Under the pieces are notes generated by a model. The model did no database searches, was not told the DNA's origin, and worked only from the letters and a program-made list of their open reading frames with translations. The position numbers and the translations under genes were made by a program. Below are positions 7,028 to 59,919 of a stretch of DNA of 64,000 bases, one piece after another. Source of the stretch: Cryobacterium adonitolivorans (GTDB lineage Bacteria > Actinomycetota > Actinomycetes > Actinomycetales > Microbacteriaceae); assembly GCF_004402695.1 (NCBI RefSeq), contig NZ_SOFL01000044.1, positions 1 through 64,000 of the forward strand, in the 5' to 3' direction. Within the stretch, counting starts at the first letter, position 1. Every line of letters starts with the position of its first letter.

Positions 7028-10000
7028 TCACTGCCGGTGAGGGGCGGCCGCCGAAGCGGCCGAAGCGGTTGAACTCGCGGTGAGTTCGCCCAATTTGCTG
7101 CGCAGGGTGTGCACGTAGGTGTCGTGCACGCTCTGGGGGTCGTCGTGGAAGAGCAGCATCGCTGGCAGCGATGTCGCGAAGTAGTCGACGCGGGCGGGCG
7201 TCGCCGCGAGTTCGACGAGGTAGTCGTCGAATTCGTCAATGAGCGTAGCGGCCGCAACATGGTCGCCGAGCCGGCGCAGAGCACGAATTGAGAACAGTGT
7301 CTTTTTGCTGAACCGGCGGTTGCTCATGTCGATGAAGTCACCGGTGGCGTGCGCGGCGGCGGTCCAGGCCGCGCTGGCGCCTTCGTCGTCGCCGGCCGCG
7401 AGCAGTGCTTCGCCGAGCAGCCAATACAAATCGGCCGAGTTGGCCAGCGGATGCCGCGCCTCGCCGAGCGATTCCGGCGGTGTGATCGCCGCGTGCATGT
7501 GCTCCAGCGCGGCGGCCGGATTACCGGAGTCGAGAGCGTGCTCAGCCAGGGCGGTGCAGGCGTTCTGCCAGGCGAGGAGCACCTGGCCTTCGCCGCCCTC
7601 CCAGGGCTGGAACACCCGGCCGAGCATGAGCGCGCGGGCCTCGTTGGAGCGGTCGACCGCGGTGAGCAGGCCGGCGTGCACCACGGTGAGGTCGTCGCGG
7701 CGGCCGGCGAGCTGCCGGTGCGCCTCGAGCCGGTCGAGCCGCTCGGTAGGGGTCGCGCCGGTGCGGGCGAGCAGCTGGTCGTATTCGTAGAGCAGCTTGG
7801 CGTCCTGCGGGGCGTGTCCCACGGCGGCTGCAAAGTGCTCGAGGGCAGCGGCCGGGTCGCGCTGCACGTTGTAGGCGGCGATTCCGAGGTTGCGGTGCAC
7901 GAGCGCGGCGGTCGCAGCGTCCGGGGCGTGCGCGGCGGCGGCTTGCCACACGGTGATGGCGTCTGTGTAGCGCTTCTTGTCGTAGTACCAGGAGCCTAGG
8001 AGTGCGGCGGCGCGGGCGTCGGTGCCGTCGGCGCGCAGAGCGGCCTCGAGCGCGGCAACGTCGGCGAGCCGGGAGGGCAGGCAGTGCCGGGCGTCGGAGG
8101 TTCGGGCGTCCGTCCGGGCGGATGTGGCCTCGGTGGGCCGGCCGGCCGCGTCGAGCAGCTGGGCGCGGTGGTAGTGCGCGAGCGGGGCTACTTGCACCTG
8201 GCCGAGGGCGGTGTTGGTGGAGGCGGCGGCCGCGGCGGCCAGCAGTTCTAGGGCCGTGTGGGTGTGCCCGGTTTCGGCGTATTCGAGGGCCACGTCGAGC
8301 ACAGTGGGGGCGTCGGTGCTCAGCTCGAGTCCGGCGAGGTGCCGGGTCCACTGGTCGAGCGGGTCGCGGGCCCGCTGCTCGGCGAGCACGGTGTCGGCAA
8401 GCGCAGTATCGGCCTCGGCGACGGCACCGCTGCCACGCAGGGTGAGGGCGAGCAGCGCGTTGGCCTGCAGGTGTTCGGGGTTGTGGCGCAGCAGTTCGAG
8501 CAGAGCGTCGCGGCTGGCGGCGAGGTCGCCCGCGCGAGCGTGCAGCCGGGCCAGGGCGTGGCCGGCGGGCACCCGCCAGGCGTCGTTCCAGGTGGCCTTG
8601 GCCAGGAAGCCCAGCGCCTCGGCGTCGCGGCCCTGGTGCACGAGGGAGATACCCAGCCGGTAGTGCGCCTCGCCGTCGGCGGGGTTGGGCACCCGGGCGA
8701 GCAGCCGGTCGATGGCGGTGCGCAGGTGCGTCTCGGCGTCGGTGTGCCGGCCGGCGCGCTCCCGCCGGGCGGCCAGGGCCACGTTGCAACGCACGTCGCG
8801 GGGGTCGCGGCGCAGGGCCTCCTCCCAGTACGGCTCGGGCGCGCGGGTGGCGTGCCGGTACTGGTCGAGGTACTGCCCGGTGTAGAAGAGTTCGTCGATC
8901 GACGCGATGGTGACGGGGTCGGCCGGTTCGGTGGCCGGGGCGGGGACCTCGGCGTCCTCGGTGGGGTCTCTTGGGGTCCAGGTGACGAGCACGGTGTCGC
9001 CGTCGCGCACGGTGAGGGTGAGTTCGCTGGCACGGTAGCCGCCGTCGAGGCTCAGCCCGTGCCGGTAGGCCTGGCTGGGGGCGAGATCGGCGGCGGCGGT
9101 GAACACGACGCGGCCGGCGGCATCCGTCAGCTCGATGGTGGCGTCGGCGATCACCCGGGTGGCGGCCACGCCGATCACCACGGTGGTGGCCGCGTCTGCC
9201 TCGTCACTGTCGTCGGCGGTGACGTCGAGGCGCACGGCGGCGTCGCGGGAGGCCTGGTGGGCGGCGCCGATGCGGGTGATCGGGTACCAGAACTGGCTGA
9301 AGGTCTTGGTCTCGCCGGGGGCGATGAAGCTGAAGTCGGGCTGGTTGTCGGTGAAGGCGCCGGCCATCAGCTCCACGTAGGGGCCGTCGCCATCGGTGAG
9401 GTTGCGGTCCCAGGCCCAGCCGAATTCGGCGTTTCCCCAGGTCCACTGCTTCTTGCCCGGCGCCACGGTGTGGTCGGCCCAGTAGACGAAGCCGGCCTCG
9501 AGGCCGTGGTCGTAGCCGCCGAAGAAGTCGTCCTGGGTGGCTACGACCATATAAGAGGTGGGCACCGGAATGTTGCGGTACCAGTCGAGCCGGTCGCCGT
9601 CGGGGCGGTCGGCGGTGACCTGGGCGGGGTAGTCGACGCCGTAGTAGTGGCCGTCGACGGCGGGGAAGGTGGCCACGGCACGCTTGGCATGGTCGGCGAC
9701 GAACTCCACGTCGGTGGGGAAGAAGGACTGGTAGTCGTCGTTCACGGCAGCGGCCACGTTGGCCCACCAGAGGAAGGTCTGGGTGGCGTCGGTGCGGTTG
9801 TAAAGGCGCACCCGGGCTTCGACCACCGAACTGTCGGGGCGCAGGCGGATGCCGTGCATGCCCTTCATGCGATTCATCGGGTCGTGGTCGCTGCACCACA
9901 CCGTGATGGCGCCGTCGGCTTCGCGTTCGATCTCCCAGTCGGTGGGTAGGAACGTGCCGGGCCGGTGGTGTTGCGGCCAGTTGAATTCGACGCCGCCCGA

Positions 10001-12807: not shown

Positions 12808-13658
12808 CGGATGTTGCACTGATCGGCCCGGTGACCGCACCCGAGTTGCACGTCATGACCTTCAACATCCGCCGACGCTTCGCCCAGCTGTTGCCCGGCA
12901 ACCCGGACCGCTGGGAGACCCGCAAGCCGCTCCTGCGGCGCATCCTGTCCACCGAACAGCCGACGCTGCTTGGCGTGCAGGAGGCGCTCGCCGACCAGGC
13001 GGAGTGGGTGGGCCAGGCCCTCGGGCCGCACTACCGCGGGGTCGGCCGCGGCCGCAACGCCGACGGGGACGACGAACGCTGCGCCATCTTCTACGACTCC
13101 CGGCGCCTCGAGCTCACCGGCTGGACCCAACGGGCGCTCTCCGACACACCTGACGTGCCCGGCTCCCGGGCCTGGGGCAATCGGGTGCGCCGGGTGCTGG
13201 TGTCGGCCGAGTTCACCGATCTCGCCACCGGCGGCCGGGTACTCGCGTTCAACACCCACCTGGACCACCATTCCTGGCGGTCCCGGCTGCGCTCGGCCGA
13301 GTACCTGTTGGAGCTGGTGCGCACGGCGCACACCGCCGAGCCGACGGCGGCGATCGTGGTGACCGGCGACTTCAACGCCGCCGCCGACTCGGCGGTGCAC
13401 CGGCGGCTGACCGCCGACGGCACTCTGCGGGATGCCTGGCTCGCGGCGGCCGAGCGGCTCAGCCCGCAGTGGGGCACCTTCGGCCACTACAAGCGGCCCA
13501 AGCCCGGCGGAAAACGCATCGACTTCATCCTGGCGGGGCCCGGCGTGACCGTGCTGCGTACCGGCATTAACGCGGTGCGATTCAACGGCCTGGCCGCCTC
13601 CGACCACGAGCCGGTGCAGGCGGTGTTGCGCGCCGACGCCGGGCCCCCGGAGAGCTGA
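12804..13658 (+). CDS. endonuclease/exonuclease/phosphatase-family protein
   Basis: 284 residues of the EEP fold (DNase I/sphingomyelinase-like). Visible active-site motifs are VMTFNIRR, LGVQEAL (metal-binding Glu), FNTHLDHHS (catalytic His), VVTGDFNAAAD (Asp and Asn), KRIDFIL and the terminal ASDHEPV (Asp-His pair). No signal peptide. Such proteins cleave phosphodiesters of nucleic acids, lipids or small molecules; the substrate is not evident. The start overlaps the carbonic anhydrase stop, and TACGCT 6 nt before the ATG could also drive a leaderless message. A broken copy of its N terminus lies at 19162. Confidence 0.88.
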   Translation: MTDVALIGPVTAPELHVMTFNIRRRFAQLLPGNPDRWETRKPLLRRILSTEQPTLLGVQEALADQAEWVGQALGPHYRGVGRGRNADGDDERCAIFYDSRRLELTGWTQRALSDTPDVPGSRAWGNRVRRVLVSAEFTDLATGGRVLAFNTHLDHHSWRSRLRSAEYLLELVRTAHTAEPTAAIVVTGDFNAAADSAVHRRLTADGTLRDAWLAAAERLSPQWGTFGHYKRPKPGGKRIDFILAGPGVTVLRTGINAVRFNGLAASDHEPVQAVLRADAGPPES

Positions 13659-46045: not shown

Positions 46046-49000
46046 CTAGCGAACGTTCCGCAGGACGCGCCTGTGGCGGTCACGCCACAGCAGTCCTGCT
46101 CCCAGGATCAGCGCCAGTATGGCTATCGTGACCCCGATGAACAACATGAGGGCGTCGACGCCCGTTTGCGCCAACCCGAAGATCGTCTGCGCGGCCCGCA
46201 CTTTGGCTGTGTCCGAAGCGGTGATCGGCGTCTGAGCCGTATCCACGGAGGGACTCTCAGCAGTAACCGTGCCCGCTACCTGCGGGGGTGCGCTCTGGTG
46301 CAGTTTCACCGTGAGCGTCACTGTGCGGCTTTCACCGACCGCGAGGGGCCCGGCGAACACGCAGGTCACGGTCTGCCTGGCCAGGAGGCAATTCACGTTC
46401 TTCCCGGTGCTGCCCACGTAGGTGACCGAGTCAGGAAGCACGTCGACGATGGTGAAGGTGCCGGGGTTCTCCGTGGGCCCGGAGTTCGTGACCGTGATCA
46501 GGTAGTCCAATTGCTGGCCCGCCCGGGCGTCACCGACGTGAGTCTTCGTGAGCCCGAGGCTCACGAGCGGGTCGACCACGAGCGCGTCTGACGCCGTGTT
46601 GTTGTCGGCTTCGGGATCGGGTGTCACGGCGGAAACCGCCGCGACATTCTCGACCGACGGGTAGGCGAGCGCCCCCACCGATGCGTTCACGACGAGTTCG
46701 GGTGCGATCTGTCGCGGGCCGAGGTCCGTGGCCAGGGAGCAGGTCACCGGCGTCGTGCCGGCGGCCGGGTCGGTCGCCGCCGCGACACAGCTCCACAGCG
46801 GGTCGCTGCCGGCGGCATCCACGAAGCCGAGGCCGCGGGGAAGCGTATCCAGCACGGTGATTCCGGACGCCGTGGAGGGTCCGTCGTTGGTGACAACCAG
46901 TCGAAAGGCGGTGTTCGTGCCGATGCGGCCGGCGCCGGCGTGCGACTTGAGAATGCCCAGTTCGGCGCTCTGGCCAAGCGTGACCGTGGCCTCGCCGGTG
47001 TTGTTGGCCAGCGTTGTCTCGGTACTCGGAGTGGAGACGGTCGCGGTGTTGGTGAGGGTGACCACGCCCAACGCGGGGTCGGAACTCGTGGTGATCGTGA
47101 GTGCCGTGGCGGTTCCGCCCGCCCCGAGCCCGACGGAACCGTCACCCAGGGTGCAGGTCACGGGCTGGGGATCGGTGTCTGGCACCGCGTCGGCGAGGCA
47201 GGACCAGTCGGGGGTATTCGCCTGCCAACGGATGCCCGCGGGCAGGGTGTCCACGAGTGTGATGGCGCCGACGGCGTCAGATGGCCCGTCGTTGACCAGC
47301 ACCAGGTCGAAGACGATGTCACTGCCGGCCATCACGTTGGCGCTCGGTGTGGACTTGGTCAGTTCCAGGTCAACGAGGGCCACGACGGTGACCGGAACGG
47401 TGTCCGAGTCGGAGTGCGGGGTGGGGCGGCTGTCGGTCCATCCGACGGTGGCCGTGTTGGTGGCCACCGTTGTGTCGAGGATGGCCGAGGACACGGCGGC
47501 AGTGACCGTGATCACGGATGCTGTGTCCCCGAGCGTCGCTCGCGCGCAGCTCACCGTGGCCATTGTGCAGGTCCAGCCGTCACCGGAGATCGCGACCGCG
47601 GTGAAGCCGGCGGGCAGCAGGTCGGCGACGGTGAGCCCCTCGGCGTTCGACGGGCCGGTTTTCGTCACGGTGAGCGTGTAGCTGATGCTCGTACCGGCCA
47701 CGACCTCCGTGGCGATGGGGGCGATCGCCTTTACGATGGTGACCTCGGCGAGGGTGGTGACCACGGTCGGGTCTTCGGCCCGGTTGGGGTTGCGGTTGTC
47801 GGCGGGCTCGGGGAGCACACCGACGACCGTGGCGACGTTCGTGAATGTCGCCGCGCCGACACCCGCCGGGATCGACACGAGCACGGTGATGGGGTCTGCG
47901 GTCGCTCCGGCGTCAAGGATGCCGGCGCTCGTGCAGGTGACGTCCTGGCCCACGGGGGCGGCGCAGTTCCAGCCGCTTCCCGTTGCCGAGACCGGTACGA
48001 GGCCCACGGGCACGTGGTCGACGACGACACTGCCGAAGGGGGCGTCGGAGGGGCCGAAGTTGGTCACGGTGAGCGCGTAGTCGACGTTCGTTCCGGCCAG
48101 GACCTCGCCGGTGGGGTGCGACTTCGTGATGCCGAGGTCGGACTCGCCGGTGAGGGCGGTGTCGGTCGTGCCGGTGGCGGGCACGGTGTTCGCCGAGGAG
48201 ACGGTGGCGCTGTTGCGCACGTTACCGGTGAGCGAACTCGGTACGTTCACCAGGACGTCGACCGTTTCGGTGCCGCCGGCGACCAGTGTTCCCGTCAGGG
48301 CGCAGCCGATCGTGGCGGGTGCCGGGCTCGTCTCCGAGCAAGCCCAGGTGCCGGGGCCCGCTGCGCCGGGGCCGGCGTAGGTGAGGTCGTTCGGCAGGAC
48401 GTCTTCGATGGCGACGGTGCGGGCATCCGCGAAGCCGGTATTGGTCACCACGAATCGGTAGGTTGCTGTGGTTCCGGGAACCAGCGTCGGCTCCACGAGC
48501 GACTTGTTGATGCCGAGGCTCGTGGTCGTGTCGACCGGCGTGGCGGTTTCGGAGTCGTTGTTTACCGGCACCGGGTCGGTGGTGGTGCCCGACACCGTGG
48601 CCGTGTTGGTGAGGCTGCCGGTGAAACCGGAGTCGACCAGGGCGGTGACCACGATGCGGGTGGTGGCGTTGAGGGCCAGGGCACCGTTGAGCGTGCAGGT
48701 GACCGTGCCTCCCGTCACGGCACAGGTGGCGTCGGCGCCGGTGACGACCACGTTGGAGATGTTGCCGGGCAGCGTGTCGGTGACGGTGATCGGGCCCGCG
48801 GAGTTCGACGGGCCGAGGTTGACGACATCGAGGTGCCAGCTGGCCTGCTGGCCAGCTGCGAACGTGCCCTGTGCCGTCTTGGTGACGGCCAGGTCGGCGC
48901 TCGTGGTGACGGCGATCGTCGCCTCGCTGGTGTTGTTGGCGGGTGTGGGGTCGTAGGTTCGGGCGGCGACGCCGGCCGAGTTGGTGACGGTGGTTGCGTC

Positions 49001-52000
49001 GGCGACGGTGGAGGCCACGGCGACGGCCACGACGATGGCCGGCCAGGCCACGCCGTTCGCGAGCGTCTCGTTGGCGTTGCTGCGTTCACAGTCGAACGCA
49101 CCGGTGGTCACGTTCGGAGCGGTGCAGGTCCACCCGGTTCCAGATGCCGCGGTGACCGTGATGCCGGCGGGCAGTGGCTGGGCGGGCAGGTCTGTCACAA
49201 CGAAGTTGCGCCCGCCCAGGCTACCCACCGCGGTGTCCGGTCCGGCGTTGCGCACGGTGAGCGTCCAGGCCCTCGGCGTTGTCGTGCCGGCCAGGAGCGG
49301 GTCGCCGGCAGCCTTGGCGATGCGTACGTCGGCGGACTGAATGAAGGCGTCAGCGGTCGCGGTGCCGGGTGCGTAGGACGTGGGGCCGGAACGGCCTGAC
49401 GCGTCCGTCGCATCCGTTGCCGTGGCGGTGAGCGTGTTGCGGTGCTGCACGCCCGCCCCGCTGCCGGGAGTGGTCGCCGCGGCCGTGGTGGGCTGCGCCG
49501 AGAACCGGATGACGATGACCGTCCCCGGGGCGACGGCGGTCAACGGCGCCCAGACCAGGGTCTGCACGCCTCCTGCCGTGCTCAGCACCGGGTCGGCGAG
49601 GGTGACGGCGGCCGCGGCCCCGATCTTCACGGTGCCGGTTCCGGCGGTGTAGACCCAGTTGCGCGGGAGTACGTCGGTCGGGGTCACCGTCTTGGCGGTA
49701 CCGGTACCCGTGTTTCGCAGGGTGAGCATCCAGCCGAAGTCGGTGTTGAGGTACCCCGTCGAGCCGTTGGCAGCGGCCTTGGCCACGGTGACGTTCGGGA
49801 AGGCGGGGGTAACGGGTGCGGTGGCGGTCGGCGGATTCGCCGTGTATTCGCGTTCGTCGGTCGCGGCCGTGGGCAGCGAGCGATAGGTGGGAACGCTAAC
49901 CCGGTTCACGATGGCACCGGTGCCGAGCGTCGACGAGGCGGCGAGCCTGGCCTGGAAGGTCTGCACGTCGCTGCCGCCCTTGGCAATGGTCGCAACCGTC
50001 CAGGTGATGGTGTTGCCAGAGAGCACGCCACCTCCGCTGATGTTCGCGATGCTGGCAAGGTCGATACCGCTGGGGATGGTGTCGACGACACTCACATCGA
50101 AGGCGTCGCTCGTGGTGGCGGTGCTGCCATTGCGGGTGGTGACGGTGTAGGTGATCACCTGGCCGGGTTCCGGCGTGGTGTCGGACGCGGCCTTACCGAT
50201 GGTCAGCCTGGGTTCGAGAACGGTCACGTCGGCGGTCGGTGAGGCTGCTGTCTCGTCGAACGTGGCGTCGGCGGCTGTCGGGTTGGCTCCGTTGGCGCGG
50301 TTCCAGCCGAGGAACGCGCTGTTTTTGAGGATGTCACCCGCCGTGCCGGCGAGCACGGTAGCGGAGAACGTCACCGTGATGGTGCGGTTCTCGGAGGAGG
50401 CGAGCACGTCGCCGAGCACCCAACCGATCTTTTGGCCTGAAGCGGTGAGCTGTGCTCCGTTACCGGGCAGGTCGCCGGCGCAGGAGACGCCCTGGGCGGT
50501 GAGGCAGGTGACGGTGGCGCTGCCCGGGCGGATACCCGCCGGCAGGGTGTCGATGATGGCGGCGTCGTAGAACTGCACGTTCAGCGGCAAAGCCACGGAG
50601 ACCGTGTAGTCGACCGTGCCGCCGATGGTGGCGGAGGCCGGCTGCACCGTCTTCACGGTGACGGCCCCTTCGACAGTGACGGTGGCGGAGGACGTTGCCG
50701 CCACGACGAGTTCGGTCGCCGAATCGTTGACCGGCGTCACGTTCTGGCCGGGGTCGTTGTCGAGGGTTGACCCGGTCACGAACGCGGTGTTGATGTACTT
50801 CACCAATCCAGCAGAATCCGGGTCGACGACGGCCCCGAAGGTGACGGTCGTGACAGCCGGGTTCAGCAGCGCCCCGCTGGCCGGCAGGGTCCAGGTGAGT
50901 TTCGTGGTGCCGCTGGCGCAGCCGTTCGCGCCGGTTCCGGCCGCGGACGCGGTCACCGTTCCGGCGGGCGAGGTGAGAAACCCGGTGCCCGGCGTGAAGA
51001 GCAGGCCGCCGGGCAGGCAGTCGGTGATGACGGAGTCGAAGGCCGCCGGTCGGCCCGCGGCGTTGCCCGCGGTCAGGGTGAACGTGACGAGCTCGCCACC
51101 TCGCGCGGTGGGCTTGTCGACCGATTTGGCCAGCGTGGGCGCCGGGGCGACGACGGTGACGGTCTTCGTCGCGGTGCGCGGGGCAACCGCGGTGCCCGCC
51201 GGGGTCGCGTTGCTGGCGAACCTGGCGGTGTTGGTGAGAGTCCCGGAGGAAAGCCCGACGCCCACGAGCACGCCCGGCACGGTCACGGTGAAGGTCTGGT
51301 CGAGTGCGGAGACATTGTCGTAGGTGCTCGGGAACGTCAGGGCGCCTGTGGCGCTGTCGAGGCTGAAGCCAGCGGTCACCGGCGAATATGTCGCTCCCGT
51401 GGCCGGCTTGGTGAGGCCGGCGACCATCGGGTCGGACAGCACTCCGTCGAAGACCGTTGAGCCGGCGGGTACGGTGACGCTGAAGGTGTAGTCGACCGTT
51501 TCACCGGCGACGACCTGGGAGTTCAGGTCGTTGTTGCTCGCGACGATGTTGGTGACGCCGGTTTTGGCGACGAGGGTGTCGGGCAGGTGCACCTCGGCGG
51601 TGTCGTTGGCCGGCGGGGCCGTGCCATCGACATTGTGGCTCGGGTCGAGGGAGCCCTTCGGGAAGAACGTGGTGTCGCCCCCGCTGGTGTTCGGCGAGGT
51701 GAACGCCACAACGGATGCCGTGTTGGTGAATTTCGAGGTGACGCTCACGTTCTGCGGCACTGTGATGCTGTAACTCACGCCGGTCGAGGCGCCGGCCGCG
51801 AGGGGGCCGGGCACGGTCCACACGATGACGCTGCGCGGATCCGATCCGAGGGTGGCCGGGTATCCGGGGTCTCCCGGGTTCACGCAGGTGCCGGAGTTGC
51901 TGATCGACGCGACCGTCCAGCCGGTGCACGTGTAGTCGGCGGGCAGGGCATCCCATACCGCGATATCCGCTACCGGCACGTTGTTGTTGTTCGTCGCGGC

Positions 52001-54394
52001 GAAGGGCTTGTTGGCGATGTCGACCGAGAAGGTGACCAGGTTGCCTTCCCGCACCAGGACGCTGTCGTTCGGTGCGGCCGGGGCCACCCCGTTGACGAGG
52101 GCAACGGCCTTGTCGAGGGTGAGCACCGGTGCCGGCGCGATGCCGAAGTCCACCTGGTCGCGCAGGGCGAGCACGGTTCCGTCGGTGGAATTCTGGCGAT
52201 ACTTCATGAGGTTGGCGGTGATGTCCACCTCGGTGCCCGTGGACTGGCCCGTGACCGTGGCGCTGACATAGAGGGTGAGCACAGCGCCCTGGGGAACGAA
52301 ACGATCGCCGCCGGACCCGACATCGCCGAGCGCCCACGCGGCCGGGAACGCGTTCGCGTCGGTGGGGGTCGCGGCCTGGGTGCCCGCAACCGGCGTGACG
52401 GTGACGCCGCCGTCGTCGTCGAAGCCGGCGAACGTGGTGCCAACGGGAACGAAGTCGGTGATCTGCGCGTTGCGGGTCTTGCTCGACGTGGAGAATGCAA
52501 CGGTCAGCTCGAAGCACACGGTGTCGCCGAGTTGATAGGTGGGCGTGTCGGAGTCGGTGTAGTTTCCTGCACTGGCCTCGCAGTCCACGGCGGTCCCGCC
52601 GGTCGGGCGCGGGAGGACCTTCTTGTTGATGACCGGGCCGCTCGAGTCGAGGCCGGCCTCTGAGTCATCCGTGACGGCCTTGGCGCCCTCGCCGGGCGTG
52701 CGCCCCGCGGTGGTGCCGGTGATGCTGACTACGTTCAGGAAGCCGTCGCCGGCCGCGGTGGGCACACCGGTTCCGGTTCCGGTTGAGGTCGTGCCCTCGT
52801 AGTTGGCGCCCATGTAGGCGTCGTAGCTGATGGTCAGGCTCGTGTCGTGGGCGAGAGCCGTCGGAGCCGGCGTCATCGTCACGGTGAAGGTGCCGTCGGC
52901 GTTGGCGACAGCGCTGTCGACGGTGGCGCCGGTGACGACACCGTCGGCGCAGCCTGCGCTCCGGGTGAAGACAACGCTCGCCGGCAGCATCGGGCAGAGG
53001 CCGTTGGGGATCACGTCGACGATGGTCATGGCGCTGTCATCGGTGTACTCACCAGCGCGGAGCAGCAGGCTGAATGTCGCCACTTTGCCGGCCCCGAAGC
53101 CCGAGGTGCCGGTCTTGACTATGGAGAGGTCCATGGCCCGCACCGTGACGCTGTCGCTCGAGGTCGTTGCGCGGTCGGCCTCCGTTGCGACGAGGCCGGA
53201 GTAGCGTCCGGAGGCCGTCGCGGTGTTCGTGAGCGCCTGGCCCGCGTTCGCGGCGTCTTCCTGACGGGTTGACGCTCCGGTGTTGTTGTCCAGGTTTGCA
53301 CCCTGCAGGCCAGAGCTGGAATCCGGCGCCGTGCCGGCCGCCCACCTCTCGTTGGCGAGCAGCGGGATTCCCGCGGCATAGTTGACGGTGACGGTGGCGC
53401 CCGCAGCGAGGGTGCCGAGGTTCCAGGTGACCTTGGTGAAGACCTGCCCGATAAAGTCCGGGCGGTCAGTGACGGTCTCCACTGACTCCGCTACGACGCA
53501 GTCAGCGGGTACGGCAGCGGTCTGGTCGAGGCGCCCGGAAGAAGGGTACTCCTCGGTGGCCTGGGCGCTGTTGTCGGTGGCGCCGCAGCCGAGGAATTCG
53601 AGCCCCGCGGGCAGGTAGTCCACGAGAACGACGTTGTCGGTGGGCGCGATGGTCGTGTTGCGGGTGGCGATCGTGTACACGGTGGCTTGGTGCTGCACAC
53701 CGCGCATGAGCTCGTGCTCGGGACTCGGCTCGGTCTTCGTGACCTCGATTGCCGCCACCTTCGTCGCGGTGGGGGTCGCCGTGGCCGAGGCGGTGAAGTT
53801 GCTCGCCGCGCCGGTGGTGGCGGTGAACTTCACGAGCAAGCGCGGGTTGGACTGGGCGTACACCGCTGCCGCGCCCGGGATGGTCGAGCCCACCGGGTAG
53901 CGAACCGGGTCGGGAACGACGGCGAACGACAGGGGTGCGGCCACTCCGGCGGGGAGGTCGGCGACGTTCGACCACACGAGCACCTGGTGCGTCACGGCGG
54001 GCACACCCGGGCCGGCCGGTGTGTCGGTGATCGTGATGACGGTGGGGTCGACGGTTGACCCGTTCGTGGCGGAGCTGCCGGGGGCGTAGCTCACGCCAGC
54101 GGGAAGCTCGTAGCGGAAGGCCAGGTTGAAGTGGTCGGTGGCGCTGGAGGCCTGCGCCTCCAGCGAGATGGTGACCTGCTCCCCGTGCAGAACCGTGGTG
54201 GCCTCGGTCGCGGTCAGGGTGATGAACTCGTCGGCAACGGCCGGGCTCAGGAACACTCCGACCGTGAGCCCGACGGCTACGAGCAGGCTGGCCACCGCAC
54301 CGGCGAGAACACGCATGTGACGCCGGGTCGGGGCGAGAAACCCGCGGGTGAACAGTGGACGACGGTGGCGCATGCGGGCAGAGGGCAGGGGCAT
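46046..54394 (-). CDS. giant DUF11-repeat cell-wall surface protein with LAXTG anchor
   Basis: 2782 residues. GGAG lies 6 nt before the ATG. A long signal peptide (AGAVASLLVAVGLTVGVFLSPAVA, cleaved after AVA) opens it. By eye there are 18 beta-sandwich units of about 110-190 residues of the DUF11/isopeptide-like type, each beginning with a strand such as DLAVTKT or SLGINKS and containing [VI]xDxLPxG and NTATV. The first ten units are longer and more divergent; the last eight are regular. The C terminus has LAQTG (residues 2741-2745), a hydrophobic helix and WRDRHRRVLRNVR, a class E sortase sorting signal. It is probably covalently attached to peptidoglycan as an adhesin or stalk. No sortase gene is in the window. 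Confidence 0.93.
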   Translation of the reverse strand: MPLPSARMRHRRPLFTRGFLAPTRRHMRVLAGAVASLLVAVGLTVGVFLSPAVADEFITLTATEATTVLHGEQVTISLEAQASSATDHFNLAFRYELPAGVSYAPGSSATNGSTVDPTVITITDTPAGPGVPAVTHQVLVWSNVADLPAGVAAPLSFAVVPDPVRYPVGSTIPGAAAVYAQSNPRLLVKFTATTGAASNFTASATATPTATKVAAIEVTKTEPSPEHELMRGVQHQATVYTIATRNTTIAPTDNVVLVDYLPAGLEFLGCGATDNSAQATEEYPSSGRLDQTAAVPADCVVAESVETVTDRPDFIGQVFTKVTWNLGTLAAGATVTVNYAAGIPLLANERWAAGTAPDSSSGLQGANLDNNTGASTRQEDAANAGQALTNTATASGRYSGLVATEADRATTSSDSVTVRAMDLSIVKTGTSGFGAGKVATFSLLLRAGEYTDDSAMTIVDVIPNGLCPMLPASVVFTRSAGCADGVVTGATVDSAVANADGTFTVTMTPAPTALAHDTSLTISYDAYMGANYEGTTSTGTGTGVPTAAGDGFLNVVSITGTTAGRTPGEGAKAVTDDSEAGLDSSGPVINKKVLPRPTGGTAVDCEASAGNYTDSDTPTYQLGDTVCFELTVAFSTSSKTRNAQITDFVPVGTTFAGFDDDGGVTVTPVAGTQAATPTDANAFPAAWALGDVGSGGDRFVPQGAVLTLYVSATVTGQSTGTEVDITANLMKYRQNSTDGTVLALRDQVDFGIAPAPVLTLDKAVALVNGVAPAAPNDSVLVREGNLVTFSVDIANKPFAATNNNNVPVADIAVWDALPADYTCTGWTVASISNSGTCVNPGDPGYPATLGSDPRSVIVWTVPGPLAAGASTGVSYSITVPQNVSVTSKFTNTASVVAFTSPNTSGGDTTFFPKGSLDPSHNVDGTAPPANDTAEVHLPDTLVAKTGVTNIVASNNDLNSQVVAGETVDYTFSVTVPAGSTVFDGVLSDPMVAGLTKPATGATYSPVTAGFSLDSATGALTFPSTYDNVSALDQTFTVTVPGVLVGVGLSSGTLTNTARFASNATPAGTAVAPRTATKTVTVVAPAPTLAKSVDKPTARGGELVTFTLTAGNAAGRPAAFDSVITDCLPGGLLFTPGTGFLTSPAGTVTASAAGTGANGCASGTTKLTWTLPASGALLNPAVTTVTFGAVVDPDSAGLVKYINTAFVTGSTLDNDPGQNVTPVNDSATELVVAATSSATVTVEGAVTVKTVQPASATIGGTVDYTVSVALPLNVQFYDAAIIDTLPAGIRPGSATVTCLTAQGVSCAGDLPGNGAQLTASGQKIGWVLGDVLASSENRTITVTFSATVLAGTAGDILKNSAFLGWNRANGANPTAADATFDETAASPTADVTVLEPRLTIGKAASDTTPEPGQVITYTVTTRNGSTATTSDAFDVSVVDTIPSGIDLASIANISGGGVLSGNTITWTVATIAKGGSDVQTFQARLAASSTLGTGAIVNRVSVPTYRSLPTAATDEREYTANPPTATAPVTPAFPNVTVAKAAANGSTGYLNTDFGWMLTLRNTGTGTAKTVTPTDVLPRNWVYTAGTGTVKIGAAAAVTLADPVLSTAGGVQTLVWAPLTAVAPGTVIVIRFSAQPTTAAATTPGSGAGVQHRNTLTATATDATDASGRSGPTSYAPGTATADAFIQSADVRIAKAAGDPLLAGTTTPRAWTLTVRNAGPDTAVGSLGGRNFVVTDLPAQPLPAGITVTAASGTGWTCTAPNVTTGAFDCERSNANETLANGVAWPAIVVAVAVASTVADATTVTNSAGVAARTYDPTPANNTSEATIAVTTSADLAVTKTAQGTFAAGQQASWHLDVVNLGPSNSAGPITVTDTLPGNISNVVVTGADATCAVTGGTVTCTLNGALALNATTRIVVTALVDSGFTGSLTNTATVSGTTTDPVPVNNDSETATPVDTTTSLGINKSLVEPTLVPGTTATYRFVVTNTGFADARTVAIEDVLPNDLTYAGPGAAGPGTWACSETSPAPATIGCALTGTLVAGGTETVDVLVNVPSSLTGNVRNSATVSSANTVPATGTTDTALTGESDLGITKSHPTGEVLAGTNVDYALTVTNFGPSDAPFGSVVVDHVPVGLVPVSATGSGWNCAAPVGQDVTCTSAGILDAGATADPITVLVSIPAGVGAATFTNVATVVGVLPEPADNRNPNRAEDPTVVTTLAEVTIVKAIAPIATEVVAGTSISYTLTVTKTGPSNAEGLTVADLLPAGFTAVAISGDGWTCTMATVSCARATLGDTASVITVTAAVSSAILDTTVATNTATVGWTDSRPTPHSDSDTVPVTVVALVDLELTKSTPSANVMAGSDIVFDLVLVNDGPSDAVGAITLVDTLPAGIRWQANTPDWSCLADAVPDTDPQPVTCTLGDGSVGLGAGGTATALTITTSSDPALGVVTLTNTATVSTPSTETTLANNTGEATVTLGQSAELGILKSHAGAGRIGTNTAFRLVVTNDGPSTASGITVLDTLPRGLGFVDAAGSDPLWSCVAAATDPAAGTTPVTCSLATDLGPRQIAPELVVNASVGALAYPSVENVAAVSAVTPDPEADNNTASDALVVDPLVSLGLTKTHVGDARAGQQLDYLITVTNSGPTENPGTFTIVDVLPDSVTYVGSTGKNVNCLLARQTVTCVFAGPLAVGESRTVTLTVKLHQSAPPQVAGTVTAESPSVDTAQTPITASDTAKVRAAQTIFGLAQTGVDALMLFIGVTIAILALILGAGLLWRDRHRRVLRNVR

Positions 54395-54545
54395 CGTGAG
54401 CTCCAGGACGGGTGCGGCGCAACGGATCAGCGCTATTGCCTGCCCCGGGACGTGATTTCATCAAGGTTTGCACACGCGTCGATCTGGCCGGATCAGAAAT
54501 CCTCCTGTTCGGGGGACGAGATCGGACAAACGTTACACAATCGCG

Positions 54546-54983
54546 ACCTATGAACCATGCGATGCCGGCCCGGCGTTCCATCCAATGCCCGGGGGCGGCC
54601 ACGACGTCGAAGCCGAACTTGGCATACAGGCCGTGAGCGGTCGAGGTTGCCAGCGCCACCCGTCGCAGGTTCAGGGCGTCGAGCGTCGCTCCGACGTTGT
54701 GGATCAGCGCCACGCCCACGCCGTTGCCACGCACGCCGGGGTCAACGAACACATCGCAAAGCCAGGCGAACGTGACCGAGTCGGTCACCAGACGCGCGTA
54801 AGCCACCTGCCGGCCCGTAACCACATCGAACATGCCGAAGTTGAGGGAGGAGTCGATCGCGGCATCCTGCACCGACCGTGCACGACCGAGGGCCCAGTAC
54901 GCCTCCGTGCTCAGCCAGAGATGGATTCGCTCGCGGTCCATCTCGTCCCGGTCGGCAGAGAAGCTGTACCAGTGATCTGTCAT
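54546..54983 (-). CDS. GNAT-family N-acetyltransferase with damaged 3' end
   Basis: From the ATG at 54983 (GAGGG 7 nt upstream). GNAT features: STEAYWALGRARSVQDAAI, acceptor-fold VTFAWLCDVFVDPGVRGNGVGVALI with the acetyl-CoA loop RGNGVG, and LYAKFGFDVVAAPGHWMERR, the normal C terminus. No stop follows in this frame: it stays open to 53502, running ~890 bp inside the giant gene in another frame. A TAG in the next frame at 54546-54548 suggests the native end was lost by a small indel. If translated as is, it would carry ~350 alien residues. The gap 54395-54545 shows only the giant gene's leader. Confidence 0.65.
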
Positions 54984-55051
54984 GGGGTCCCTCAACCGGA
55001 ACCGGCCGGGTCACGCAAACCCGACGCCGGCCCGACTTTCCGGCCTGCTTT

Positions 55052-55135
55052 TTGCATAACTCCTGCAATTTCTGCCGCCCGGGGGCGAAACGGCCAGTTT
55101 GAGCCCGAATCTCGAAAAATGCAGGAGTTGTGCAA
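55052..55135. repeat. large imperfect inverted repeat (family C) at the edge of the kdp remnant
   Basis: 23-bp arms (55052-55074 and 55113-55135) pair with 4 mismatches: the left arm starts TTGCATAACTCCTGCA, the right ends TGCAGGAGTTGTGCAA. The 38-nt loop has no gene. It lies between the GNAT start and the broken kdpB sequence, about 40 bp from where kdpB homology begins. Confidence 0.75.
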
Positions 55136-55176
55136 CCCGCACTGGGCGGTGGGGTCGGGCAGGGCTGCGAGGCGGG

Positions 55177-55617
55177 CGTATCCTGTCGGCGATCATCTTC
55201 AATGCCATCATTATCGTCGCGCTGATTCCGCTGGCCCTGCGGGGCGTGCGCTACCGCCCGGCGAGCGCGTCGAGCATCCTCGGCCGCAACCTGCTGATCA
55301 CCCTGGTCGGCCAGTTCTTCACGGATGCGGACGGCGTGGCCCTGCCCGAATGGTTCCGGTTCTGCCCCTCCGCGGCCGGCGAGATCCCCGCGGGCGCCGT
55401 CACCGCGTCCGCCTCCGGCCTCGACCCGCACATCAGCCCGGCATACGCCCTGCAGCAGGTGCCGCGCGTGGCGGCGGCCCGCGACCTGTCTGGGGCAACC
55501 GTGCGCGCGCTCGTCGAGTCGGTCGAACAGGGGCGTGACCTCAGGTTTCTCGGCGAACCGACCGTGAATGTGCTCAACTTGAACCTCGAGCTCGCGAAGC
55601 TCGACTCCAGCAGATGA
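55177..55617 (+). pseudogene. kdpB-kdpC deletion remnant
   Basis: The frame opens with the last membrane helix of the KdpB ATPase ([31 protein letters not shown]). It jumps after NLLI into the KdpC subunit at VGQFFT, skips the middle of KdpC, and ends with a normal KdpC C terminus ([34 protein letters not shown]). Thus kdpA, most of kdpB, and the KdpC membrane anchor and core are gone. The rest has no transporter function. It lies 8 bp before kdpD in the usual kdpABCDE order. Confidence 0.9.
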
Positions 55618-55625
55618 GGTAACCC

Positions 55626-58154
55626 ATGAAACGCGGCCGATTGCGCGTGCTGCTCGGCGCCGCCCCCGGCGTCGGCAAGACCTACAGCATGCTCGAAGAA
55701 GGTCGCCGGCTGCGGGACGAGGGCAAAGATGTGGTCGTCGCGGTCGTGGAAACCCACGGCCGCGCAGCCACCGCGCTCATGGCGGAGGGCCTCGAGGCGG
55801 TACCGCGAATACTCGTTCAGCACCGCGGCATCGAGCTGAGCGAACTCGACCTGGCCACCGTGCTCGACCGCCGGCCCGAGATCGCCCTGGTCGATGAGCT
55901 CGCCCACACCAACGCCCCCGGCTCGGCGCACTCCAAGCGCTACCAGGACGTGGAGGCGCTGTTGGCGGCCGGAATCGACGTGATCTCGACCGTCAACATC
56001 CAGCACATCGAATCCCTCAACGATGTCGTGCAGCAGATCACCGGGGTGCCGCAGCGCGAGACGCTGCCGGATGTGGTGCTGCGCACCGCCGATCAGGTGG
56101 AGGTCGTCGACCTGGCACCGCAGGCCCTGCGCGACAGGCTCGCCGAGGGCAATGTGTACCCGGCGGCCCGCATCGACGCGGCACTGTCAAACTATTTCCG
56201 GCTCGGCAACCTCACCGCCCTGCGCGAGCTGGCGCTGCTCTGGCTGGCCGACGAGGTCGACACGGCGCTGCAGAGCTACCGAGCCGAGCACGGCATCTCG
56301 AACAAGTGGGAGGCCCGCGAACGCGTGGTCGTGGCGCTCACCGGAGGCCCAGAGGGCGACACCCTGATCCGCCGCGGCGCTCGCATCGCCGCGCGCTCGG
56401 CCGGCGGCGAGCTCATGGCCGCGCACGTGATCAGCCAGGACGGCCTGGCCGCACCGCATCCGGGCGCGCTGGCGGCGCAACGGGCGTTGGTGGAGGAACT
56501 CGGCGGCAGCTACCACCAGGTAGTCGGTGACGACATCCCCCGGGCGCTGGTGGAGTTCGCCCGCGCCGCCAACGCCACCCAGCTGGTGATCGGAGTCAGC
56601 CGCCGCAACCGGCTGACCGCGGCGCTGTCCGGGCCGGGCATCGGCAGCACCATCACGCGCGAGTCCGGCGACATCGACGTGCACATCGTCACCCACTCCG
56701 CGGCCGGCGGAAAGTTCGCCCTGCCCAGGCTCGGCGGCTCGCTCACCGTGCGGCGGCGCCTGGCCGGATTCGCCCTGGCCCTGGTCGGCGGGCCGCTGCT
56801 GACCTGGCTGCTCGTCAGCTTCCGCAGCGAGGAGTCGATCACCAGCGACGTGCTCAGCTACCAGCTGCTCGTGGTGGTCGTCGCGCTGGTCGGCGGGCTC
56901 TGGCCGGCGCTGTTCGCGGCTCTGTTGAGCGGGCTCACGCTGGACTACTTCCTGGTGCAGCCGCTGTACACGGTCACGGTGGCCGAGCCGCTGCACCTCT
57001 TCGCTCTCTCCCTCTACCTCGTCAACGCGCTCCTGGTGAGCATCGTCGTCGACCAGGCGGCCCGGCGCAGCCGGACGGCCCGGCGGGCGGCGGCCGAATC
57101 CGAGCTGCTGGCCACCGTGGCCGGCAGCGTGCTGCGCGGGGAGGACGCCCTGCAGGCGCTGGTCACCCGCACCCGCGAGGCGTTCGGACTCGACCGGGTG
57201 CGACTGCTCGCCAATGGCGCGGTGCTGGCCGAGGCGAGTGCGGCGGATGCGGCGGCGCCGGGCGCGGCGGCACCCGCGGGCACGATCATGCCCATCGGCA
57301 GCCGGGCCACCCTGGAGCTGTCCGGCCCCGACCTCGCCGCGTCCGAGCGCCGGCTGCTCAGCGTAATCGCGAGCCAGATCGATGCCGCCCTCGAGCATCG
57401 CGACCTCGCCCAGACGGCCAGCGAGATCGGCCCGCTGGAGGAGGCGGACCGCATGCGCAGCGCCCTGCTCGCCGCCGTCGGCCACGACCTGCGCCGGCCC
57501 CTCGCCGCCGCGACCACGGCCATCAGCGGGCTCAGGGCCACCGACATCACCCTCCCCGAGACCGACCGCACCGAACTGCTGGCCACGGCCGGCGAAAGCC
57601 TGGACACCCTCGCCTCGCTGGTGACCAACCTGCTCGACGTGAGCCGGTTGCAGGCCGGGGCGCTGGCCGTGGCGCTGGAGCCCGTCGACCTCGCCGACGT
57701 GGTTATGCCGGCGCTCGACGAGCTCGGCCTCGGGCCGGACACCGTGCAGCTCGATCTGCCGGGCGAGACCGCGCCGGTGCTCGCCGACCCCGGCCTGCTG
57801 CAGCGCGCGGTGGTGAACCTGCTCACCAACGCCATCCGTTTCTCGCCGCCCGGCACACCCGCCCGGGTGTCGGCCAGCCGGTTCGCCAACACCGTGCAGC
57901 TGCGCATCATGGACCAGGGACCCGGCATCCCGGCCGACCGGCGGGGAGATGTGTTCGTGCCGTTCCAGCGGCTGGGCGACATCGACAATGCCACCGGCCT
58001 AGGTCTCGGCCTGGCCCTGTCGAAAGGGTTCGTCGAGGGCATGGGCGGCACCCTCGAGGCCGACGACACCCCCGGCGGCGGGCTCACCATGGTGATCACC
58101 CTGCCGGCCGTCGAGTACACCGCAGAGCCTGACAGCGACGAGGTCAGGCCATGA
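55626..58154 (+). CDS. kdpD: KdpD sensor histidine kinase
   Basis: 842 residues, complete. N-terminal KdpD domain with Walker A GAAPGVGKT (11-19) and LVDELAHTNAPGSAHSKRYQDVE; a USP-like domain (~250-360); a DUF4118 four-helix membrane block (~375-470: LALVGGPLLTWLLVSF onward); a GAF-like region; then HisKA with phospho-acceptor His620 in VGHDLRRPL, N box LLTNAIRFSP and G boxes DQGPGIPADR and GLGLGLALSKGF. It senses K+ limitation or turgor and phosphorylates KdpE. Its cognate transporter genes are deleted next door, so it is an orphan here or drives other genes. The start overlaps nothing; the stop overlaps kdpE (ATGA). Confidence 0.95.
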   Translation: MKRGRLRVLLGAAPGVGKTYSMLEEGRRLRDEGKDVVVAVVETHGRAATALMAEGLEAVPRILVQHRGIELSELDLATVLDRRPEIALVDELAHTNAPGSAHSKRYQDVEALLAAGIDVISTVNIQHIESLNDVVQQITGVPQRETLPDVVLRTADQVEVVDLAPQALRDRLAEGNVYPAARIDAALSNYFRLGNLTALRELALLWLADEVDTALQSYRAEHGISNKWEARERVVVALTGGPEGDTLIRRGARIAARSAGGELMAAHVISQDGLAAPHPGALAAQRALVEELGGSYHQVVGDDIPRALVEFARAANATQLVIGVSRRNRLTAALSGPGIGSTITRESGDIDVHIVTHSAAGGKFALPRLGGSLTVRRRLAGFALALVGGPLLTWLLVSFRSEESITSDVLSYQLLVVVVALVGGLWPALFAALLSGLTLDYFLVQPLYTVTVAEPLHLFALSLYLVNALLVSIVVDQAARRSRTARRAAAESELLATVAGSVLRGEDALQALVTRTREAFGLDRVRLLANGAVLAEASAADAAAPGAAAPAGTIMPIGSRATLELSGPDLAASERRLLSVIASQIDAALEHRDLAQTASEIGPLEEADRMRSALLAAVGHDLRRPLAAATTAISGLRATDITLPETDRTELLATAGESLDTLASLVTNLLDVSRLQAGALAVALEPVDLADVVMPALDELGLGPDTVQLDLPGETAPVLADPGLLQRAVVNLLTNAIRFSPPGTPARVSASRFANTVQLRIMDQGPGIPADRRGDVFVPFQRLGDIDNATGLGLGLALSKGFVEGMGGTLEADDTPGGGLTMVITLPAVEYTAEPDSDEVRP

Positions 58155-58852
58155 GAATCCTGATCGCCGACGATGACCCGCAGATCCTCCGGGCCCTGCG
58201 CATCACCCTCGGCGCCCGCGGCTACGAGATCGTCACCGCCCACGACGGCGTGACCGCTCTGGCGGCAATCGTGGAGTACCACCCCGATCTGTTGATGCTG
58301 GACCTCGGCATGCCCGCCCTCGACGGTCTCGCCGTGATCGACTCGGTGCGTGCGTGGAACAGCGTGCCGATCCTGGTGGTGAGCGGCCGCAGCGGCGCCT
58401 CCGACAAGGTGGAGGCCCTGGACCGGGGCGCCGACGACTATGTCACCAAGCCGTTCTCGATCGACGAACTGCTGGCCCGCATCCGCGCCCTCACCCGCCG
58501 GATGCCCACCAGCGGCGACGAACCCGTGGTCACCTTCGGCAACATCACGGTGGACCTGCCGGCCAAGACCATCGTGCGAGCCGCCGCCGGCGGAGCCGAG
58601 CACGTGCGGCTGACCCCGACCGAGTGGCAGATCCTGGAGCTGCTGCTGCGCACCCCGGGCAAACTGGTGACCCGCCAGGCCCTCTACGCCGAGGTCTGGG
58701 GCCAGCACAAGATGACCGACACCGGCTACCTGCGGCTCTACCTCGCCCAGCTGCGCAAGAAGCTCGAGACGGACCCGTCCCGGCCCCGCTACCTGATCAC
58801 CGAGGCCGGTATGGGCTACCGTTTCGCGCCAGACCCGCCCGCCGGCGCCTGA
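58151..58852 (+). CDS. kdpE: KdpE response regulator
   Basis: 233 residues, OmpR/PhoB type. Receiver domain: acidic pocket IADDDPQI, phospho-acceptor Asp51 in LLMLDLGMPALDG, conserved Lys in DDYVTKPFSIDELLARI. C-terminal winged helix: LTPTEWQILELLLRTPGKLVTRQALYAEVWG, YLRLYLAQLRKKLE. It starts inside the kdpD stop. It normally activates kdpABC in response to KdpD; with that operon deleted, its targets must lie elsewhere or it has none. Confidence 0.95.
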   Translation: MRILIADDDPQILRALRITLGARGYEIVTAHDGVTALAAIVEYHPDLLMLDLGMPALDGLAVIDSVRAWNSVPILVVSGRSGASDKVEALDRGADDYVTKPFSIDELLARIRALTRRMPTSGDEPVVTFGNITVDLPAKTIVRAAAGGAEHVRLTPTEWQILELLLRTPGKLVTRQALYAEVWGQHKMTDTGYLRLYLAQLRKKLETDPSRPRYLITEAGMGYRFAPDPPAGA

Positions 58853-58950: not shown

Positions 58951-59718
58951 TCAGCTCACCGCTTTCGCCAGGGGGCGGTCATACCGGGGACGCCGCACCA
59001 ACAGGGAGCTGACGTCTCCGGCGACGTTTCGCGGCGCGCGCCCTCGTTCGAACAGGATACCCGGTTCGGCCGGCAGCGGATCCGCCGAGCCGCCGCCGAC
59101 CACGGCGAGCGCGCAGGCCAGCGTCGAGGTGACACTGAGGTGGGTACCCTCGCGCAGGCCCAGGACCGGCACGTCGTTCTCATCGAGGAACTCCGTCAGC
59201 CGGGACTCGCGGGAGTCACCGGTGTGCACGCCTGCCGGGTCGGTGTCGAGGTAATGCGGGTTGATCTGGAACGGAACCAGGCCGAGCGCATCGAACGACT
59301 CGGGCTGCACGATGGGCATGTCGTTGGTGGTGCGGATGCTGGGCGCGGTGATGGTGGCTCCGGCGCTGGAGCCCAGGTAGGGCAGGCCGTTCTGCACCCG
59401 GGCGCGGATGACCGGTATCAGGCCGAGACGCTGCAGGGCGGCGAGGAGGCGGAACGTGTTGCCCCCGCCGACGAAGAGCGCCTGGGCGGACGCGACAGCG
59501 GCGACCGGGTCGGCCGCCTCGTGCAGTCCGCGCGCCGCGATGCCGTGCGGCTCGAGGGCTGCCCGCACCGACGCCGTATAGGCGTCGAGGTCGCCGCCCG
59601 CGAAAGGCACGAAAGTGACCACGGTCACGCCGTGCAGAAAAGCGAGCACCTCGGGCAGTGCGTGCTCGAGGTAGCCCTGGCCGGGGCTGGTGCAGTTGGC
59701 GAGGAGGAGCAGCTGCAT
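58951..59718 (-). CDS. pepE: peptidase E (S51 alpha-aspartyl dipeptidase-like)
   Basis: 255 residues from the ATG at 59718 with AAGGACCCC upstream. Class-I-glutamine-amidotransferase-like fold with the S51 serine nucleophile in YLGSSAGATI. FVGGGNTFRLL precedes it; INPHYLD supplies the catalytic His. The usual substrate is Asp-X dipeptides, cleaved in the cytosol. It stands alone, with kdpE converging on it. Length is close to the family norm. Confidence 0.9.
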   Translation of the reverse strand: MQLLLLANCTSPGQGYLEHALPEVLAFLHGVTVVTFVPFAGGDLDAYTASVRAALEPHGIAARGLHEAADPVAAVASAQALFVGGGNTFRLLAALQRLGLIPVIRARVQNGLPYLGSSAGATITAPSIRTTNDMPIVQPESFDALGLVPFQINPHYLDTDPAGVHTGDSRESRLTEFLDENDVPVLGLREGTHLSVTSTLACALAVVGGGSADPLPAEPGILFERGRAPRNVAGDVSSLLVRRPRYDRPLAKAVS

Positions 59719-59919
59719 GGGGTCCTTCCGATCGGGATGGTTCACTGGGGCGCTCGACGTGAGACCCGAGGAGGCCCATTCCGTCGCTCGAGAGGTGATA
59801 CTACCTCTCTCCAGACGGAGCCGCCGGGGAGGTTTTCCCTTCCGGTCGTGAACCCGACAGCCGCCAGGGGGCCCGGGTTCTTAGGATGGGAGCACGCCCC
59901 ATCGACCACGGAGGTCATC

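Follow-up and report, generated by a model that had tools for sequence, protein, structure and literature searches.

Why would a two-component system outlive the transporter with which it is encoded? The question is raised by the kdp locus at positions 55052 to 58852 of a stretch of 64,000 nucleotides (the window) from Cryobacterium adonitolivorans (contig NZ_SOFL01000044.1 of assembly GCF_004402695.1), in which the genes of the KdpFABC K+ pump are reduced to a relic and kdpD and kdpE, encoding the sensor kinase and its response regulator, remain intact. A first-pass annotation of this DNA had taken the preservation of the pair to mean that it now serves other genes. We favor a different answer, to which we assign a probability of about 0.43, namely that the window KdpDE acts in trans on the one pump remaining in the genome, encoded on contig C53, after a pump loss that redundancy permitted. 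A deletion too recent for decay to have set in is almost as probable. The locus is mostly a case of ordinary gene loss after redundancy.

The window locus is read as a single open frame (55180-55617) in which the last ~40 KdpB residues run into kdpC sequence; kdpD and kdpE, both complete, come next. Translated searches (tblastn) with the KdpA, KdpB, and KdpC proteins of the same genome's intact operon recovered 44 residues of KdpB and parts of KdpC, and KdpA had no match at the locus; thus, no functional kdpFABC, with intact kdpA, kdpB, and kdpC, stands beside these regulators. This bears out the earlier statement that kdpA and most of kdpB are gone and that the last part of KdpB is fused to kdpC. 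The kdpC remnant, described there as two pieces, resolves into three when set against the intact operon of the relative G035. Three bases are shared at the kdpB/kdpC junction (ATC) and at the last junction (CGA), and the middle kdpC junction falls at the similar stretches GGTCGGCCAG/GATCGGTCAG. The three internal losses amount to 253, 78, and 120 bases in G035 coordinates, and the frame stays open after each of them, up to the kdpD start. Chance could account for this (odds of about 1 in 27 with each junction free), as could a need for translation up to kdpD. The large loss took ~4 kb of the G035 layout, i.e., the upstream region, kdpF, kdpA, and most of kdpB. Its right end lies at G035 position 8537 and its left end between 4568, where the last exact match ends, and 4608, where a direct repeat discussed below starts, which places the left edge within ~40 bases before the site of that repeat.

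The observation that the first-pass annotation had itself named as speaking against its proposal, a second kdpABC elsewhere in the genome with its own KdpE site, was made. Contig C53 carries complete kdpABCDE with a kdpF-like start, preceded by GTTAGG half-sites, and an intact kdpFABC is thus available to the cell; the idea that the pump is missing from the whole genome was discarded on this basis. Comparison of the loci indicates that Cryobacterium has two kdp operon lineages, the window operon (lineage A) being a degraded copy of one and C53 representing the other. KdpC is present in 29 of the 57 genomes of the genus, and full-length KdpD occurs in all 29 of these and in 0 of the 28 without KdpC (G031 was counted as carrying full-length KdpD on two overlapping matches in one open frame). 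Two of the 28, G010 and G026, have a truncated KdpD with KdpE. Seven genomes have two full-length KdpD, i.e., that of the window (G000), C. arcticum SK-1 (G003), C. zongtaii (G056), G006, G032, G041, and G044. There are 34 intact KdpC matches and 36 full-length KdpD, and the surplus two KdpD belong to C. adonitolivorans and C. arcticum.

The same chromosomal place carries an intact operon in G035, G056, C. lactosi (G017), and others. Among the eight inner lineage-A loci with kdpABC (L069-L076), the peptidase-like gene to the right is found in 7/8, an epimerase-like gene in 8/8, and the left neighbor in 5/8. Horizontal arrival of the window copy was also considered and is not favored, its gene neighbors being shared with the sisters. 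In a tree of kdpD plus kdpE (13 sequences), the window groups with G056 (support, 81) and G035 (support, 100). This grouping, together with the intact operons at the same place in the sisters, makes the window's own branch the most likely place of the deletion; comparison with relatives having full kdpABCDE, one of the checks proposed at the outset, identifies the window locus as a degraded operon. In protein, the KdpB relic (40 residues) matches G004, G041, and G031 exactly, and at the DNA level it is 91.7% identical to them versus 89.2% to G035. This closeness to genomes other than the kdpDE sisters could result from local recombination or from chance in 120 bases.

C. arcticum has arrived at the same state. 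At its lineage-A locus (L068), kdpFABC is gone and the last 21 kdpC codons are kept before intact kdpDE, and KdpA, KdpC, and KdpD of a second kdp operon are encoded on another contig. This deletion is independent of that in the window and has different junctions. Among 80 named kdp loci, the 71 with at least 5 kb upstream of kdpD were counted, the other nine being too short upstream; complete kdpABC lies upstream on the same strand in 67/71 and is missing there in four (L116, L161, L164, and L181). The four genomes encode one KdpA each, with two strong KdpD matches in three of them and one in Leifsonia virtsii. All four belong to the Micrococcales, and their junctions are other than those of the window. 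C. arcticum SK-1 (L116) and Diaminobutyricibacter tongyongensis (L161) keep kdpDE with one KdpA elsewhere, as the genome of the window does; L161 has no relic in the 300 bases before kdpD. Isolate 3FA27C10 (L164) also has a kdpC relic before kdpD (300 bases read), with kdpA nearby on the other strand. L. virtsii (L181) likewise has kdpDE without kdpABC upstream, but only one strong KdpD and no relic in 300 bases; its only strong KdpD and only KdpA lie on different contigs (G351), a natural unlinked arrangement.

Other kdp loci are damaged in other ways. In G041, the lineage-A KdpE is split by a frame change (L075, ~12950-12953) next to KdpA to KdpD that match over their full length, and a second KdpC and KdpD are present. 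In G010, which lacks KdpC, a kdpF-like start and the first 225 KdpA residues are joined directly to the last third of kdpD, followed by kdpE (L078, 8298-10474); this is another internal kdp deletion. The KdpD match in G026, also without KdpC, covers only residues 470 to 833 and is accompanied by KdpE (L077, 6777-8629). Two further named kdpD loci, L139 and L168, have no KdpE match downstream within the 6-kb flank.

The regulators of the window show none of this damage: all 1075 codons of kdpD and kdpE read through without a stop or frameshift. KdpD retains Walker A (residues 11-19), His620, and the N (735), G1 (763), F (777), and G2 (791) boxes of the ATPase. Its Pfam domains are KdpD, with a G-X5-GKT Walker A, Usp, DUF4118 as the membrane part, HisKA, and HATPase_c. 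KdpE combines Response_reg, with the phosphoacceptor Asp51, and an OmpR-type Trans_reg_C domain (Pfam), and the best-scoring solved chain for it carries the name KdpE (4kny). All the catalytic features that had been listed for the pair were therefore found. A Gly before His620 is not a sign of decay because it is present in all 14 aligned sequences. The window proteins are 73% (KdpD) and 67% (KdpE) identical to their C53 paralogues. KdpE residues 10 to 25, presumably the kinase-facing helix, are identical in both paralogues, and TDTGYLRLYxAQLRKKxE, which we take to be the DNA-reading helix, differs only by L/I. The sequence features expected of a serine kinase and its substrate are also there, i.e., Walker A in the window KdpD and the TGES serine, which we assume to be the target, in the C53 KdpB.

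Substitution patterns agree with this picture. Branch ratios of nonsynonymous to synonymous change (dN/dS) were derived from three-point distances based on pairwise counts, without ancestral sequences. For kdpD, they are 0.116 (0.067-0.187) or 0.114 (0.071-0.175) on the window branch and 0.115 or 0.110 in G056; for kdpE, the window value of 0.145 or 0.114 lies within the range of the sisters (0.087-0.155). Private changes at KdpD sites that are invariant in the other 13 sequences number 3/536 in both the window and G056. Thus, kdpD and kdpE show no sign of decay and are as constrained as in G056, in line with the earlier description of an intact pair.

What the retained pair would act on is suggested by the DNA before kdpF. 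An 11-bp direct repeat, GTTAGG-N5-GTTAGG, is exact there in 5/8 inner lineage-A operons (G035, G056, G038, G017, and G044) and has one change in its second half in G004, G041, and G031. Two GTTAGG separated by 26 bases precede the operon on C53 and those of lineage B in G003 and G044, G052 has one, and G047 and G010 have none; the comparison covers the 14 of 24 loci that match the kdpF pattern. This repeat is probably a KdpE site. The region that holds it is deleted in the window, and a genome-wide search for the repeat found no exact copy and one copy with one mismatch (the reversed control gave five).

We envisage the following course. As comparison with the sisters shows, the genome held both kdp lineages, and a single deletion removed kdpF and kdpA, with the region before them and most of kdpB, from the window copy; further deletions took pieces of kdpB and kdpC, leaving kdpDE with its start region intact. 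The loss may have been tolerable as the C53 lineage supplies a pump. The window KdpE could bind the GTTAGG half-sites before the C53 kdp genes, and phosphotransfer with the C53 pair is proposed because the kinase-facing receiver helix is identical in both KdpE proteins. The N-terminal serine kinase of the window KdpD may in turn act on the C53 KdpB, by analogy with Escherichia coli. According to the available part of PMC11018627, the KdpD N-terminal domain is a serine kinase that phosphorylates KdpB, and KdpB is highly phosphorylated when KdpFABC is made in strain LB2003, a host without kdpFABC that expresses kdpDE. The LB2003 result argues that kdpDE need not be encoded with the pump to act on it. 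In Mycobacterium smegmatis, kdpDE is cotranscribed with the pump at low K+ and is otherwise proposed to be transcribed from its own promoter, at a very basal level (PMC5401905, in part). From these two precedents, we expect low-level production of the window pair irrespective of K+, and action on the C53 pump; selection presumably keeps the pair.

Expression of the window pair might come from a weak kdpD promoter inside the end of kdpC. A 15-codon block at the kdpC end ranks 18th of 2224 windows over kdpA to kdpD for synonymous conservation in the eight intact inner lineage-A genomes, and the C. arcticum deletion stops at this block. The best 10-codon kdpC window is located elsewhere in kdpC and was matched by 955/5000 shuffles. 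A conserved kdpD promoter in the kdpC end was thus kept only as a suggestion, helped by the end of the C. arcticum deletion.

Several observations weigh against the action of the window KdpDE on the C53 pump. The kdpD of G035 is more constrained (dN/dS, 0.064 or 0.056) than that of the window, and in C. arcticum the gene is slightly less constrained than in G044 (0.134-0.163 versus 0.078-0.100) and five private changes. The GTTAGG box is a putative KdpE site, the site in M. smegmatis being reported, in the available part of PMC5401905, as unlike other known ones, and the half-site spacing on C53 differs from that in lineage A. A scan of 54950-55700 found no sigma-70-type promoter at the kdpC end (0 sigma-70 promoters and 0 terminators), and the synonymous conservation there is high but not unique. 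Binding, phosphotransfer, and expression as described above are predictions. The co-occurrence of KdpD with the pump would also be expected from linkage if whole operons were lost at once. Finally, the deletion cannot be shown to be old enough for decay of kdpDE to be expected, a point that leads to the closest alternative.

The window pair may have no function of its own, the deletions being so young that kdpDE has had no time to break. We regard this as almost as probable as action in trans, and it makes the step from preservation to a new function, taken in the first-pass annotation, a weak one. The relic is still one open frame, and its largest kdpC piece is 88.3% identical in DNA to G035, as G035 is to G056 (87.9%). 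Counts over 99 codons of the kdpC relic (five junction codons were left out) give a dN/dS of 0.372 (0.166-0.776) or 0.398 (0.170-0.981), with nonsynonymous change above that of G056 (0.077 versus 0.024; bootstrap, 0.7%) but not clearly above that of G035 (0.062 versus 0.034; bootstrap, 12%). The ratio does not exceed that of the intact kdpC of G035 (0.48), and the 77 codons of kdpC piece 3, taken by themselves, do not differ clearly from those of G035 or G056. Over the 99 codons, 99.5% of bootstraps place the relic above kdpD of its own branch, but kdpC outpaces kdpD in G035 too, where it is intact. When the kdpB and kdpC pieces are taken together, nonsynonymous change is again greater than in the same codons of G056 (bootstrap, 0.4%), which speaks for some age, though not clearly greater than in G035 (8.1%). 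Relaxation of the kdpC relic is therefore uncertain, and the deletion may be young. The broken KdpE frame of G041 and the truncated KdpD of G010 and G026 show that kdpDE does break elsewhere in the genus; against mere youth stand the unbroken 1075 codons of the window pair and the independent occurrence of the same state in C. arcticum.

That KdpDE has been rewired to genes unrelated to the Kdp pump, as first proposed, seems improbable. KdpDE in some pathogens is described as a regulator of virulence and survival beyond K+ transport in the part of PMC3610689 at hand. However, the exact lineage-A repeat occurs nowhere in this genome, the DNA-reading region of KdpE is nearly unchanged from the C53 paralogue, and the distribution of full-length KdpD, present in every Cryobacterium genome with KdpC and in none without it, favors action in trans over service to other genes. 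An assembly artefact joining distant pieces deserves very little credence; the genome is a 3.67-Mb draft of 58 contigs, but the locus sits inside a 91-kb contig with conserved neighbors on both sides, and at two of the three internal junctions there are 3 shared bases, a frequent mark of real deletions. A broader extension of action in trans is doubtful: in Microbacteriaceae, losing one of two pumps while keeping its KdpDE may be a recurrent, selected end state, in which a single pump would be under the control of two sensor pairs and the extra pair, freed from the pump promoter, would act in trans as a second, constitutive K+ sensor and as a serine kinase for KdpB.

The cause of the large loss is a separate matter, compatible with any of these explanations. 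The first-pass annotation had pointed to an inverted repeat close to the kdpB breakpoint and suggested that it may have promoted the deletion. The repeat is indeed present, 44 bp from the breakpoint, with arms GCATAACTCCTGCA and TGCAGGAGTTRTGC that are 90% complementary and a folding z-score of -3.88. It is a dispersed element: the genome holds 39 arm matches (0 for the reversed pattern), and a slightly longer arm pattern occurs in 49/57 genomes of the genus, the control giving single hits in two genomes. At least 14 two-arm copies are listed from the window's genome, a listing that leaves out copies with changed arms or cut by locus ends; they span 80 to 103 bases arm to arm, mostly 91 to 93, and the window copy is the shortest at 80. 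Causation by this palindrome, e.g., through hairpin-induced breakage or recombination between copies, is undecided and in our judgment somewhat unlikely. In its favor, a full copy lies near the window breakpoint, and in the independent C. arcticum deletion the kdpC breakpoint directly adjoins a single arm that has 18 identical bases in common with the window copy (L068, ~9328-9351). Set against this, a whole copy in G038 and a solo arm in G056 are found upstream of intact operons, and the internal junctions of the window show only 3-base or ~10-base similarities and no repeat.

The coordinates of the locus are collected in Table 1. To its left, the window encodes a repetitive, surface-like protein of 2782 residues (46046-54394, minus strand) with an LAQTG end and a membrane anchor, recognized by eye. 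Rfam gave 0 matches in the window at gathering scores.

Table 1. Features of the kdp locus and its immediate surroundings in window coordinates
Feature	Position	Strand	Remarks
Flanking gene, left synteny marker	54498..54992	-	GNAT acetyltransferase-like by eye; 78-91% identical neighbor upstream of kdpA in G035, G017, G004, G041, and G031
Palindromic repeat, left arm	55052..55071	.	One copy of dispersed repeat
Palindromic repeat, right arm	55116..55135	.	One copy of dispersed repeat
44 bp between repeat and kdpB relic	55136..55179	.	55136-55185: no significant match in L069-L074 or L007 (best E, 0.097)
kdpB relic, C-terminal end	55180..55299	+	87.5-100% amino acid identity to KdpB of 8 relatives; exact DNA matches to G035
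kdpC relic piece 1 (ITLVGQ)	55297..55314	+	18/18 bases identical to G035 kdpC; ATC shared with kdpB end
kdpC relic piece 2	55315..55382	+	70-74% amino acid identity to relatives; exact DNA matches to G035
kdpC relic piece 3	55380..55617	+	Pfam KdpC positions 109-181; 88.3% DNA identity to G035; stop codon placed as in G035
kdpC-kdpD spacer GGTAACCC	55618..55625	+	Conserved in G035, within 22-base exact match
kdpD, intact, 842 amino acids	55626..58154	+	Domains and catalytic motifs
kdpE, intact, 233 amino acids	58151..58852	+	Overlaps kdpD by 4 bases
Peptidase-E-like gene (by eye), right synteny marker	58954..59745	-	Right of kdpE in L068-L070 and L072-L076; absent there in L071

No title on this locus or its palindromic repeat was found among the literature matches listed, from which absence from print is not claimed. 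Here a sensor and regulator pair has survived the loss of its pump while an intact paralogue persists in the same genome, and this is seen in two Cryobacterium species with different junctions. Such a clean natural example allows a simple test of insulation between paralogous sensor pairs, and of whether the serine-kinase role of KdpD alone suffices for retention.

Both the repeat and the regulators have known counterparts. Repetitive extragenic palindromes (REP), with the bacterial interspersed mosaic elements (BIME), and miniature inverted-repeat transposable elements (MITE) are kinds of short dispersed palindromic repeats. Like them, the Cryobacterium element is a short, many-copy dispersed palindrome, and its terminal inverted repeats and scattered copies are those expected of a MITE. 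Unlike REP with a REP-associated tyrosine transposase (RAYT), it has no match to a Y1 (RAYT-type) transposase in this genome, where it mostly measures 91 to 93 bp arm to arm. The window KdpDE has the same domain order and catalytic residues as the KdpDE/KdpFABC system of E. coli and its actinobacterial form in M. smegmatis; unlike in either, it has lost the adjacent pump genes and their upstream region and shares its genome with a second, intact operon. Two kdp operons per genome are known, from titles cited in PMC11018627 (available in part), in Alicyclobacillus acidocaldarius and Anabaena L-31. C. adonitolivorans likewise has two, one of them reduced to its regulators.

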